Assembly (NCBI GenBank): GCA_024278415.1
Contig: JAJRTI010000427.1
Location: forward strand, 1-9,509
Reading direction: 5' to 3'
DNA length: 9,509 nt
Source: Planctomycetota bacterium
Lineage (GTDB): Bacteria > Planctomycetota > Brocadiia > JAJRTI01
In this document: positions 5,751-9,256 of the stretch, piece after piece
How the letters are laid out: each line of letters opens with the position of its first letter
How positions within the stretch are numbered: the first letter of the stretch is position 1
Notes under the pieces: generated by a model
Database searches by the model: none
The model's input: the letters and a program-made list of their open reading frames with translations, nothing else
Told to the model about the DNA's origin: nothing
Made by a program: the position numbers and the translations under genes

Positions 5751-6188
5751 ATGGCAAACAAGGCTCAACTGAACGCGAATCAGCTTCGGGACGTGGACGA
5801 CTACCTGGGCAAGCTCGTCCACACCCAGCCCGAGGCCGATGAGGAGCTTTGTCCCACCTGCCAGCAGCCGGTGGTGAAGCGGAACGGGGCCGTACACAAG
5901 ATGCTCGTCGTGACCGGCAAGACCACAGGGGTCTACGTGCCGCTGCCAGAGGGCAAGGTGATGACGATCGGCCGGGGCAGCGCCTGCGATTTGAGGCTCG
6001 AAGACGCAGCCGCGTCCAGGCAGCATGCCCAGATCAGGGGCCAAGAGAAGCTTTGTGTGATTCGGGATCTCGACAGCGCCAACGGCACGCTCGTAAACGG
6101 CAAGCCCATCGAGTCCAGACAGCTCGCCGACGGCGATGTGGTCCAAATCGGCGCCACCCGGATCATCTTCTACGCGCAGAAGGACTAG
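5751..6188 (+). CDS. FHA-domain protein with N-terminal CxxC segment
   Basis: This 145-residue protein has one forkhead-associated domain at about 50-142, with all core signatures: IGRGSACDLRLED (73-85), SRQHA (89-93), RDLDSANGTLVNG (105-117) and QLADGDVVQIG (124-134). Arg75, Ser89, His92 and Asn111 fit a phosphothreonine-binding surface. The N-terminal 45 residues are hydrophilic with one CPTC pair (C34, C37), a half zinc-ribbon that would need a partner to bind metal. No membrane segment is present, so it is cytoplasmic. It starts 37 bases after the STAS stop and likely shares its transcript; its Shine-Dalgarno is weak. It probably reads threonine phosphorylation, but the kinase is not in the window. 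Its TAG stop is part of the CTAG duplication of the adjacent inserted element. Confidence 0.92.
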   Translation: MANKAQLNANQLRDVDDYLGKLVHTQPEADEELCPTCQQPVVKRNGAVHKMLVVTGKTTGVYVPLPEGKVMTIGRGSACDLRLEDAAASRQHAQIRGQEKLCVIRDLDSANGTLVNGKPIESRQLADGDVVQIGATRIIFYAQKD

Positions 6189-6189
6189 C

Positions 6190-6202
6190 CCGCATTTCTC
6201 AC
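6190..6202 (+). repeat. Left terminal inverted repeat of the MITE-like element
   Basis: CCGCATTTCTCAC, exact reverse complement of 6413-6425. It starts two bases after the FHA stop codon. Confidence 0.8.
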
Positions 6203-6353
6203 GAGTCCAGGCGGGTGTCGATGCAAGGCGCACGGTCGCGAAGGCGTGTTCGGCTCGAGCGCCGTGCAACGCAGCAGCGGCGCCCGACGGGGCTCGCCCG
6301 AAGGGCCTGCCCCTCCCGTTCGACGCGTGCATGTTGTTGCTCAACCCACGCGT

Positions 6354-6382
6354 CCGTCTGGGCCGGTCAGGTCTTCAGACGG
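6354..6382 (+). repeat. Internal hairpin of the MITE-like element, weak terminator candidate
   Basis: CCGTCTG (6354-6360) and CAGACGG (6376-6382) form a 7-bp stem, extendable by two G-U pairs, followed four to five bases later by TTTT (6387-6390). The short T-run after a stem could allow weak termination of the STAS-FHA transcript. Equally it may only be part of the element's palindromic make-up. Confidence 0.4.
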
Positions 6383-6412
6383 CCACTTTTCCGACACTTC
6401 TATCCCGGGCTG

Positions 6413-6425
6413 GTGAGAAATGCGG
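6413..6425 (-). repeat. Right terminal inverted repeat of the MITE-like element
   Basis: GTGAGAAATGCGG on the plus strand, matching the left end in inverted orientation and followed by C and then CTAG (6427-6430). Confidence 0.8.
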
Positions 6426-6443
6426 CCTAGGGGCGCCGTCAAC

Positions 6444-6497
6444 TCTGTTCGGCACGCGCCACGGCTGCCTCCTGAGGCAGATGGTGTGCCGAACAGA
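6444..6497. repeat. Long nested hairpin upstream of the unknown gene
   Basis: The outer stem is a perfect 12 bp: TCTGTTCGGCAC (6444-6455) with GTGCCGAACAGA (6486-6497). Within it GCCA (6458-6461) can pair with TGGT (6482-6485) with one wobble, and CTGCCTC (6465-6471) pairs perfectly with GAGGCAG (6474-6480) around two bases. No T-run follows on either strand. Without the adjacent insertion it would begin 13 bases after the FHA stop, so it may be the old end structure of that transcript, or a separate REP-like or cruciform sequence. It ends 55 bases before the next gene. Confidence 0.75.
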
Positions 6498-6552
6498 ATG
6501 GGAGCGCTGCCGGCATGGCCCGGGACGCGCACACAATAGGACGCCTCCATCT

Positions 6553-7182
6553 GTGCCCCAATGGCTCGACAACTTCCAGCAGACCGCGCAGCGACACGCG
6601 GCCGCGTTCGCCTCACCAGAAGCCTACCGCCAGCACGCGGCCTGGGCCGTGGACAAGTGCCGCACCGCGCAGGCGCTGCTCACCCTGAGCGCGCTCGAAG
6701 CCGCGTCGCCGCGAGACATCTACGACGCGCTCAAGCGCATCTGCCTCAACGTCGAAGCCCTCCCCTTCCGCATCACCCGCATCGCGGACAGCAACGAGGC
6801 CGACCGGCTACGCGGGGGGCTGCTGAAGCTCGCCACCACCAAGGGCACGGCCCAAGACAAGATGCGCGCAGCGGGGCTGCGCCAGTTCGGCGAAGCCACG
6901 CTGACCGAGATCCTCTGCATGCACCAGCCGCAACGCTTCGTCATGCGCAGCCGCCCCGTCATGAAGGGCCTCGTCAAGCTCTGCGAACTCTACACCGAGC
7001 GCCACCTGCGCGACATGACCTACGCCGAGTACGAGGATCTGCTGCGCGAGATGGAGAAGGTGTATCGCCGCGCGATCCTCGCCCGCCTCGACGTCGAGGA
7101 GTTCTACATCGAGCACAAGTGCCTGCTCGTGTGCCTGTTCCTCGCGGAGCATTCCGGCAAGGGGAAGCGGCCCTATGCATGA
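6553..7182 (+). CDS. Predicted helical protein of unknown function
   Basis: I do not recognise this 209-residue protein with confidence. It is almost wholly alpha-helical, with no signal peptide. The centre reads AAGLRQFGEATLTEILCMHQPQRFVMRSRPVMKGL (106-140). This resembles the 'G-FG-A--EIL----P-RF----R---GL' pattern of a small helical domain seen in some restriction-type and AAA-ATPase proteins, but that is memory of a pattern, not a match. A hydrophobic run (KCLLVCLFLAEH, 189-200) is too short for a clear membrane span. The GTG at 6553, with AGGA 11 bases upstream, is preferred. The frame is open back to 6136, but that stretch crosses the inserted element and a hairpin; an ATG at 6481 is an alternative. 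It overlaps the kinase-glycosyltransferase gene by 8 bases, so the two are probably translated together. Confidence 0.7.
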   Translation: MPQWLDNFQQTAQRHAAAFASPEAYRQHAAWAVDKCRTAQALLTLSALEAASPRDIYDALKRICLNVEALPFRITRIADSNEADRLRGGLLKLATTKGTAQDKMRAAGLRQFGEATLTEILCMHQPQRFVMRSRPVMKGLVKLCELYTERHLRDMTYAEYEDLLREMEKVYRRAILARLDVEEFYIEHKCLLVCLFLAEHSGKGKRPYA

Positions 7183-9256
7183 CTCCGAGGCTAGCCAGAC
7201 GTTCGAGCCCGGCCGCGTCCGGCCGACCGTGGCCCAGGGCTGCCCTCCAGACGCGATCCTGCGCCGCTCCGTGGGATGCTTCGCCAACAATGCTCAGTTT
7301 TGCCGAGAGACGCTCGACGGCCGCCTCACGCACCGGCGCAGGGACTTCACGCCGGACATGATCGACGCCGCGATTCGCAAACACGACGCGCTGCCCGACG
7401 ACGCGCCCGGCGCGCTGAAGGTCGTGCCGGGGCCGACGCGTGTAACGCTCGTCGATGTGGACGGACCGAGCGGCCCCCTGCGCGTATGCGTGAAAGAGTA
7501 CTTCGGCGAGCCCCTGGCAGGCCGTCTCAAGCACGCGTTGCTCCGCGCGCTGCGGCGCTGGCCGGCGCGGCAGTCCTTCGCGGCCGCGCATGGCCTGGTC
7601 ACGCGCGGCATCGGAGCGCCTCAGCCCCTGGCCGCGGTCGTGCCGCTCAACCCGCTGTCCGCGCGCAGCAGCTACTTCATCAGCGCGGGGCTCGTGGGCT
7701 CGCTCGGCGCAGACGTCTACGCCAGGGACAAGCTCGCCACCCCTGAGGGCCGACGGGCGTTCGCGGGGGCGCTTGGCGAGTTCTTCCGCCAGATCCACAG
7801 GGCAAACGTGTGGCACCGCGACCTCAAGGCCACAAACGTGCGCGTCACGGAGGCCGGCGAGCGCGAGTGGCAGTTCCACGTGGTCGACCTGGACCGAGTC
7901 AAGTTCGTGCGACGGCTCAGCGAGGAACGCCGGCTCAAGAATCTTGGCCAGATCGCGGCCGGCATGGTCCAACAGGGCGCGTTCACCCAGGACGACGTGG
8001 AGGCGCTTTGTCGCGGTTGCTCAGGCGCTTCGGCAGCGCCTGCCGAAGTGCACGCGCTCGCCGGGCGCGTCACCGCCGCGGCCGGCGCAGGGATCGGGCG
8101 TGAGCCGCGCGCCTGCGCGTCCCGCATCCTGCACGTGCTCTGCGACTGGAAGCTGACCGGCCCTTCGGAGCCTACGCTGAACTTATGCCTCGCGTTGCGA
8201 GAGGCCGGACACGAGGTCCAATTGGCCTGCCAGGCCGCGCCCGACTTGGACCGGCCATCGCTGCCCAAGGCCGCGGCCAGCGCCGGGCTTGAGCCGGTCA
8301 CCGCCCTGCGGCTCAAGCCGTCCGCCAACCCGAGGTCGTTCTGGCGCGACGTGAAGCAGCTTCGCTCGCTCGTGCGCGGCCGCGGCTTCGACATCGTGCA
8401 CGTGCACGACGACCATGGCATGCTCATGGCGCGTCTCGCACTTGGCGCCAAGGGCAAACGCCAGACGAAGATCGTCCGCTCGTTCCATAAGGCCGCGGCG
8501 CCTGGTGGTTGCATGGTCTGGCTCCACGCCGTGTGCGCCGATGGAGTGGTCACCGTCTCGCAAGCGCAGCGCGAGCGCTTCCTCACGCGCTTCTCGGAGC
8601 CTGCCGTGTCGCAGACGTTCGGCGCGACTGACCTGGAGCGTTGCCAACCCCGGCCCGCGACCGACCGCGGCCGCGAGCTGCTGGGCGTGGCGGCCGACGA
8701 CTTCGTCGTGGGTATCGTTGCGCGCGTGCAGCGTCGGCGCCGGTTCGACCTGTTCCTCGATGCCATCAAGCTCGCGCTCGACCGCGTGCCGAACCTGAAG
8801 GCCGTGGTCGTGGGCCGCGGCACGCACCGTGAGGACGTGGTCATCAAGCCCGCGCTCCAGATGGGCCTCGGCGACGTGGTTCGCTTCCCGGGCTACCTCT
8901 CTGGCGACGACTACCTCGACGCGCTCGCGGTCTTCGACGCGAAGATCTTCCTGGTGCCCGGCTCGGACGGCTCCTGCCGCGCGGCACGCGAACTCATGGC
9001 CATGGGCAAGCCTGTCATCTGCACCGACCGGCCTCCTCTGCCGGAGATCGTCGAGCACGAATCCTGCGGCTTGGTCTGCTCCGAGTCTGCCCAGGCTCTT
9101 GCCGACGCGATCGTGCGGCTCGCGCAGTCGCCCGAACTCGTCGAGTCCATGGGCCGCGCCGCGCGCCAGAGGGCCGAGACGCAGTTCGCGGCCGAGCGCG
9201 AGCGCGAAGCGGTGGAGTCGGTGTACCATGGCGTGCTTCCAGCGGGTCGTTGGTAG
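7175..9256 (+). CDS. WaaP/Kdo-type lipopolysaccharide kinase fused to a GT4-like glycosyltransferase
   Basis: This 693-residue protein joins two enzymes. Residues about 80-300 are a lipopolysaccharide-kinase (Kdo/WaaP/InaA) domain: VCVKEY gives the ATP-binding Lys107, NVWHRDLKATNVRV (211-224) is the catalytic loop with Asp216, and VVDLDRVKF (236-244) gives the metal-binding Asp238. Residues about 316-687 are GT-B fold, family GT4-like: RILHVLCDWKLTGPSEP (317-333), FDIVHVHDDHG (405-415), GVVTVSQAQRERFL, VVGIVARVQRRRRFDLFLDAI (511-531) and the donor site PGSDGSCRAARELMAMGKPVICTDRPPLPEIVE. There the usual E-x7-E is D598-x7-E606. AAGGGG stands 10 bases before the ATG, and the gene overlaps its upstream neighbour by 8 bases. 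No signal peptide, so the active domains face the cytoplasm. The likely role is phosphorylating and glycosylating an envelope glycolipid core or glycan; acceptors unknown. The first 60 or so residues match nothing I know. Its TAG stop lies in a REP-like repeat. Confidence 0.9.
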   Translation: MHDSEASQTFEPGRVRPTVAQGCPPDAILRRSVGCFANNAQFCRETLDGRLTHRRRDFTPDMIDAAIRKHDALPDDAPGALKVVPGPTRVTLVDVDGPSGPLRVCVKEYFGEPLAGRLKHALLRALRRWPARQSFAAAHGLVTRGIGAPQPLAAVVPLNPLSARSSYFISAGLVGSLGADVYARDKLATPEGRRAFAGALGEFFRQIHRANVWHRDLKATNVRVTEAGEREWQFHVVDLDRVKFVRRLSEERRLKNLGQIAAGMVQQGAFTQDDVEALCRGCSGASAAPAEVHALAGRVTAAAGAGIGREPRACASRILHVLCDWKLTGPSEPTLNLCLALREAGHEVQLACQAAPDLDRPSLPKAAASAGLEPVTALRLKPSANPRSFWRDVKQLRSLVRGRGFDIVHVHDDHGMLMARLALGAKGKRQTKIVRSFHKAAAPGGCMVWLHAVCADGVVTVSQAQRERFLTRFSEPAVSQTFGATDLERCQPRPATDRGRELLGVAADDFVVGIVARVQRRRRFDLFLDAIKLALDRVPNLKAVVVGRGTHREDVVIKPALQMGLGDVVRFPGYLSGDDYLDALAVFDAKIFLVPGSDGSCRAARELMAMGKPVICTDRPPLPEIVEHESCGLVCSESAQALADAIVRLAQSPELVESMGRAARQRAETQFAAEREREAVESVYHGVLPAGRW

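Follow-up and report, generated by a model that had tools for sequence, protein, structure and literature searches.

A candidate IS1380-type miniature element at the stop codon of an FHA-domain gene in a planctomycete contig

Results

A 238-bp unit abuts the stop codon of an FHA-domain gene

The window, i.e. the whole stretch of Planctomycetota DNA analysed here (9509 bp, 65% G+C, four CTAG in total), contains a gene for an FHA-domain protein followed by a 238-bp unit (6189-6426), which is bounded on both sides by CTAG and carries 13-bp perfect inverted ends (Table 1). An earlier note on this DNA had described a non-coding unit of this length and with these terminal repeats between two CTAG copies, and had placed the TAG stop of the FHA gene inside the left copy. 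Both observations are confirmed: the coding sequence ends in AQKD-TAG, with TAG forming bases 2-4 of the left CTAG. The 13-mer CCGCATTTCTCAC (6190-6202) has its exact reverse complement, GTGAGAAATGCGG, at 6413-6425, and a single base stands between CTAG and the 13-mer on each side, C at 6189 and C at 6426 (G on the other strand). With this base counted, the terminal inverted repeat is 14 bp long with one mismatch and, together with CTAG, forms a 27-base arm that is 85% complementary; the likeness of the left arm to the right arm extends to 6211. At 238 bp, the unit is far below the size of a transposase gene.

Table 1 Features of the FHA locus and of the adjoining element
Feature	Position	Strand	Basis or remark
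FHA-domain protein gene, 145 aa	5751..6188	+	Pfam FHA, 70.8 bits
Putative IS1380-type non-autonomous element with its two flanking CTAG	6185..6430		Sequence, family matches, parents
Left 4-bp target copy CTAG	6185..6188		FHA TAG stop at 6186-6188; presumed duplication
Left terminal inverted repeat, CCCGCATTTCTCAC	6189..6202	+	Family consensus end
Internal part of element	6203..6412		Genome search
Right terminal inverted repeat	6413..6426	-	Outermost base off consensus (GCCGCATTTCTCAC)
Right CTAG copy	6427..6430		Sequence
Flank past right CTAG, GGGCGCCG	6431 onward
Perfect 12-bp hairpin, arms 30 nt apart	6444..6497		Starts 13 nt past right CTAG

Before the insertion, the hairpin downstream of the right CTAG would have followed the FHA stop at a distance of 13 nt. 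The element now parts the gene from it. No copy of the hairpin with the same inner arms and spacing was found in 334 loci. The next gene (209 codons, frame 6553-7179), for which no Pfam family scored above cut-off, probably starts with the GTG at 6553. We also observed a 348-codon open frame (6136-7182) that starts inside the FHA gene, crosses the whole element and enters this downstream gene; because the frame is open through the element, automatic gene calling may fuse the genes. The other neighbours include a STAS-domain gene and, at 7175-9256, a Kdo/WaaP-type kinase domain fused to a glycosyltransferase. Among 20 genomes, the best match of the latter (40% over 378 residues) is in G177, a genome of Candidatus Brocadiia, which is no more than a hint of kinship.

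The FHA protein has matches in 288 of 294 Planctomycetota genomes, whereas viral contigs gave none; identities reached at most 48% among the top matches in the genomes, so no close relative was found there. Five homologues were aligned. The closest three (92, 67 and 63% identity) share the end residue of the FHA protein and the other two (55 and 52% identity) end elsewhere; because it is the three closest that agree, the position of the stop is probably ancestral.

The end of the unit belongs to a multi-phylum family

When the window was Markov-shuffled 200 times, a perfect 13-bp inverted repeat with its arms 40-400 bp apart arose in 29 of the shuffles, so the inverted repeat by itself is not significant. 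The significance comes from the 18-base end, which matches a family spread over several phyla. Viral contigs contain this end (CTAG-N-CCGCATTTCTCAC, CTAGNCCGCATTTCTCAC) in 9 stretches and genome contigs in at least 119, the loci being picked in both cases by the CTAG end. Among the matches listed, the carriers include Gamma- and Alphaproteobacteria, Planctomycetota, Acidobacteria, Gemmatimonadetes, Opitutia, Eisenbacteria, Sumerlaeota and Myxococcales. A second end with at most 2 mismatches was identified in 56 of these at least 119 genome loci, giving units (both 4-mers included) of 54-311 bp, most commonly 184 bp; 23 of the 56 have no CTAG at the partner end. The remaining loci either run out within 330 bp (31) or are unpaired (32).

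The 13-mer was then counted in 12 genomes selected as carriers of the end: all 12 contain it, in 29-294 copies per genome, and the reversed 13-mer used as a control matched once over all 12 genomes. Among 57 distinct ends retrieved with only the 13-mer as query, 27 are preceded by CTAG and 11 by TTAG. The 18-mer is present in 11 of 80 genomes (G004, which is counted, and its relatives), and the pattern TAGNCCGCATTTCTCACNAG in 3 of the 9 genomes listed in the class of G177, Candidatus Brocadiia (10 in G162, 3 in G177 and 1 in G147), while being absent from two genomes outside that class.

The search for further copies suggested by the earlier note therefore had a mixed outcome: family copies exist in many genomes, but none of 392 Planctomycetota genomes contains a full-length copy of the window's own element. 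Short matches to it were found in 16 of the 392, one of them to its end, and a BLAST search against plasmids gave short matches in 5 records, each covering 15% of the query; among the matches listed, those to other loci fall at the element ends and not in the internal part. In two genomes (G002 and G007), several contigs stop approximately 80-120 bp inside an element end, and contigs ending in this manner indicate that such repeats break draft assemblies.

That the unit is immobile here, either an inverted repeat arisen by chance or a structure at the transcript end retained for its fold, is exceedingly improbable. Equally long repeats do arise in the shuffles, and the RNA fold of the element is strong (-133.9 kcal/mol, z-score -5.9), but a strong fold is expected of any unit with long inverted arms, which alone would raise the score, and an 18-base end shared with a family from several phyla argues against chance. 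Moreover, no promoter- or intrinsic-terminator-like site and no Rfam family above gathering score were found in 6000-6700. We take the element to be selfish, with little effect on FHA.

Relatives duplicate a 4-bp target

The window alone cannot show a target duplication, because CTAG is palindromic. We therefore turned to copies on plasmids, of which 13 loci were read, drawn from 250 and 180 matching records; one (L329) was read at one end only and was excluded. All 12 copies read at both ends are flanked by identical 4-bp direct repeats, CTAG in 10 and TTAG in 2. TTAG is not palindromic, and the two TTAG pairs (L332 and L333) are therefore direct repeats. In G162, a miniature element of 224 bp (L302) also lies between non-palindromic direct repeats, CTAC/CTAC. 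Empty sites were available for one plasmid copy, L272: its flanks plus one CTAG equal the uninterrupted length in 4 of 4 related plasmids (L285-L288), which read CGAA, not CTAG, at the target. For the window's own locus, the empty site that the earlier note had proposed to look for was not found.

These data bear on two other ways of reading the flanks. In one, the inverted repeat itself begins with CTAG and nothing is duplicated at all, which the palindromic CTAG of the window would equally allow and with which the frequent unequal flanks described below would agree. We consider this highly improbable, as all 4 of 4 empty sites exceed the length of the flanks joined without CTAG by 4 bp, and TTAG in the two plasmid copies of 12 that are informative, like CTAC in L302, is direct and not inverted; on the strength of the plasmid copies and L302, we rejected the reading that CTAG belongs to the repeat. 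In the other, the unit is a MITE of IS630/Tc1 type, so that only TA is duplicated within a CTAG target and the outer C and G are bases of the flank or of the end. IS630 has a taste for CTAG, and 24 of 50 draft pairs read NTAG...CTAN (17 with C/G and 7 with unequal outer bases). Duplication of TA with fixed G/C ends nevertheless fits neither the TTAG direct repeats (L332, L333) nor CTAC (L302), which largely refute it even though the CTAG of the window cannot decide, and the transposases identified between such ends belong to the IS1380 type (see below), which also counts against IS630. An IS630/Tc1 origin is thus very unlikely.

The picture in draft genomes is less uniform. The outer 4-mers are identical in 20 of 50 unselected pairs, and among the 29 pairs in which both 13-mers are perfect, 14 have equal flanks (CTAG in 12, TTAA in 2) and 15 unequal ones. 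Unequal flanks could stem from recombination between copies, from errors of assembly or from a different route of insertion. Four loci with both 13-mers perfect (L223, L224, L220 and L228) are flanked by sequences that are not direct repeats, and two pairs among them are mutually reverse-complementary, GGTA/TACC and CTGG/CCAG.

Returning to the 4-bp duplication, the CTAG/CTAG of the window fits that of the subgroup identified below, a true duplication being seen in the relatives only. The earlier note had claimed that target duplication preserved the FHA stop; the ends of the FHA homologues and the 4-bp duplication in the relatives support this, and at the present locus the stop would have been retained in the same way.

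The ends are those of an IS1380 subgroup

The largest cluster of open frames located beside such ends consists of four frames of L004, L033 and L034, and L034, the one tested, is IS1380. Pfam PF13701 scored over cut-off in 12 of 17 genomes carrying the element; in 14 control genomes, 3 gave a match and 1 exceeded the cut-off. No PF13701 match was obtained in 5 of the 17, G001 (the most element-rich genome searched, with 294 matches) and 4 others, and G162 likewise contains elements and no PF13701. In G001, the parent may have been lost, be missing from the draft or be of another family.

In L196, a unit of 1771 bp, a 524-codon frame encoding an IS1380-like transposase lies between near-identical ends. 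Its terminal 43 bases are identical (43/43) to one end of a paired miniature element in the same genome (L137) and, also in that genome, to an unpaired end whose partner lies beyond the contig (L082). The best NCBIfam match of the L196 transposase is IS1380 at 130.9 bits, below the cut-off of 180, and PF13701 scores 74 bits against a cut-off of 34.7; by these scores, it appears to be a distant IS1380 transposase. The transposases of L034, L179 and L183 pass the IS1380 NCBIfam cut-off, and in L179 and L183 this end is absent within 4 mismatches. Two other IS-sized units, L016 and L159, contained no transposase recognisable by eye among the frames listed.

On plasmids, IS1380 elements carry the exact end on both sides in L270 (P. 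putida) and L290 (Stutzerimonas), with one mismatch at one end in L271 (Bradyrhizobium), and with more mismatches in the R. leguminosarum elements (L272, L289 and L291). In the stretch read of four Acetobacter IS1380A copies, the end is absent even with 3 mismatches allowed. As IS1380A is without the end and the others have it, the parent is a subgroup of IS1380 and not the family at large. Within Candidatus Brocadiia, G131 contains IS1380 fragments (L323 and L324) with nearly the same end. Overall, an end within 3 mismatches was found in 16 of 40 PF13701 loci, several of which overlap, in 0 of 20 control loci and in 0 of 40 shuffled ones.

Insertion sequences with such ends, which the earlier note had suggested looking for, thus exist among IS1380 elements on plasmids and in the IS1380-like L196. 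The description of the unit as a MITE-like mobile element is well supported by its relatives, and this copy is presumably mobile too. Judged by its ends, the unit in the window is most readily classed as a miniature element of the IS1380 subgroup.

Elements of the family are enriched at TAG stops

We asked how often elements sit at a TAG stop. With the flanks joined and genes called crudely, this is the case for 16 of 64 elements and 40 of 624 control CTAG sites (p=1.2e-5). By the same crude gene call, stop and intergenic positions stand at 16:21 for elements and 40:188 for controls (p=9e-4), and 27 of 64 elements lie inside called genes as against 382 of 624 controls (p=0.005). A looser count by open-frame length gave 25 of 62 elements and 121 of 697 controls. 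The looser count leaves out L229-L248 and L269 onward and takes only pairs that have TAG on the left, CTA on the right and flanks of 350 bp or more; the count by gene call leaves out L179-L208 as well, with a flank of 400 bp and control loci of at least 2500 bases. The stop cases depend heavily on few genomes, G004 alone contributing 5 of the 16. The window itself is not among the 16, because its long overlapping frame placed it under ‘inside’.

A frame-wise comparison was also made. At 162 distinct CTAG ends, the frame of the TAG is open for at least 100 codons in 36 cases, as against 19 and 21 for the two remaining frames; the corresponding shares for 1393 control CTAG sites are 10% in the TAG frame and 21% and 10% in the others. 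The clearest single case is a G004 element (L255:1797-2047) that abuts the TAG of a phage-integrase-family gene: in 5 of 10 relatives, the gene ends in TAG at the same codon without an element there, and in the other 5 it is a few codons longer and uses a different stop.

We infer that the excess at stops stems from the survival of neutral insertions and not from active targeting. Selection against other insertions explains part of it; the excess over intergenic positions may be due to promoter harm, to gene-call error or to a real preference.

Discussion

The unit at the end of the FHA gene is very probably a miniature, transposase-less element that a DDE transposase of the IS1380 family, acting in trans, inserted at a YTAG target, with a 4-bp duplication that kept the stop. 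In this mechanism, the transposase would recognise the CCCGCATTTCTCAC ends of the miniature element and insert it into a 4-bp YTAG (CTAG most often, TTAG sometimes), of which the 4 bp would be duplicated. Because YTAG contains TAG, the stop would be kept in the left copy and the protein would remain unchanged. The end of the FHA gene would represent one such insertion, and elements at stops recur across the family. The copy in the window would accordingly be mobile, with a parent in the same genome and mobilisation in trans.

The closest known systems are the IS1380 elements of the subgroup with CTAG-C-CCGCATTTCTCAC ends (for example that of the annotated IS1380 transposase in NZ_AP015030.1, P. 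putida pKF715A), which have the terminal repeat and the flanking CTAG in common with the unit but are approximately 1.6-1.8 kb long and encode a transposase, whereas the unit has 238 bp and none. piggyBac, whose target is TTAA, resembles the subgroup in its 4-bp duplicated target; two TTAA/TTAA pairs occur among the copies analysed here. This eukaryotic element is described as distantly related to IS1380 in the text available of one report (PMC10140906). IS1247, an IS1380-family element of Paracoccus, is described with imperfect inverted repeats of 16/13 and a 5-bp duplication (PMC3281130, available text); it is like the subgroup in family and in its short imperfect repeats, and unlike it in duplicating 5 bp instead of 4.

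Other MITEs offer a comparison. MITEPye1 is an IS1182-type MITE (PMC11578231) and MITEAba12 has been compared with ISAba12 (PMC6382973); as far as the available text of these papers goes, both are, like the unit, small and transposase-less with IS-like ends, the parent families differ, and no stop-codon preference is mentioned. A target that supplies a stop is described for ISPsp10 (IS5 family, IS427 group), where TA is duplicated at +TAA (PMC4133298, available text); there, the stop serves the transposase gene, whereas the duplicated target in the window keeps the stop of the host gene. IS1380 is stated to be over-represented between genes in the available portion of PMC9208149, and such an intergenic excess fits silent landing sites. 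The available text of the open-access papers PMC4133298, PMC9330008, PMC3281130, PMC11578231, PMC9208149, PMC3542288 and PMC9998317 contains no IS1380-derived MITE and no CTAG target. In open-access text as far as available, the exact end had one match, in a CFTR paper, and its reverse strand none; the elements in the available text of the Pink Berry and Thiomargarita papers are different ones.

MITEs are a known kind of element; for this one, the parent family is identified, and the recurrent position at stop codons is unexpected. An anonymous repeat is thereby tied to a defined transposase family, and such miniature elements can abound in uncultured lineages, the highest count being 294 end matches for a genome of 3.5 Mb. 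A further caution is that open frames may extend across these elements. Tentatively, they might form a cross-phylum IS1380-type miniature group whose YTAR target is in effect a pyrimidine plus a stop codon, so that an element landing at the end of a gene restores the stop and many harmless 3’ sites become available; this choice of target may possibly have been selected for that reason. A target carrying its own stop codon offers a testable reason for the high copy numbers.
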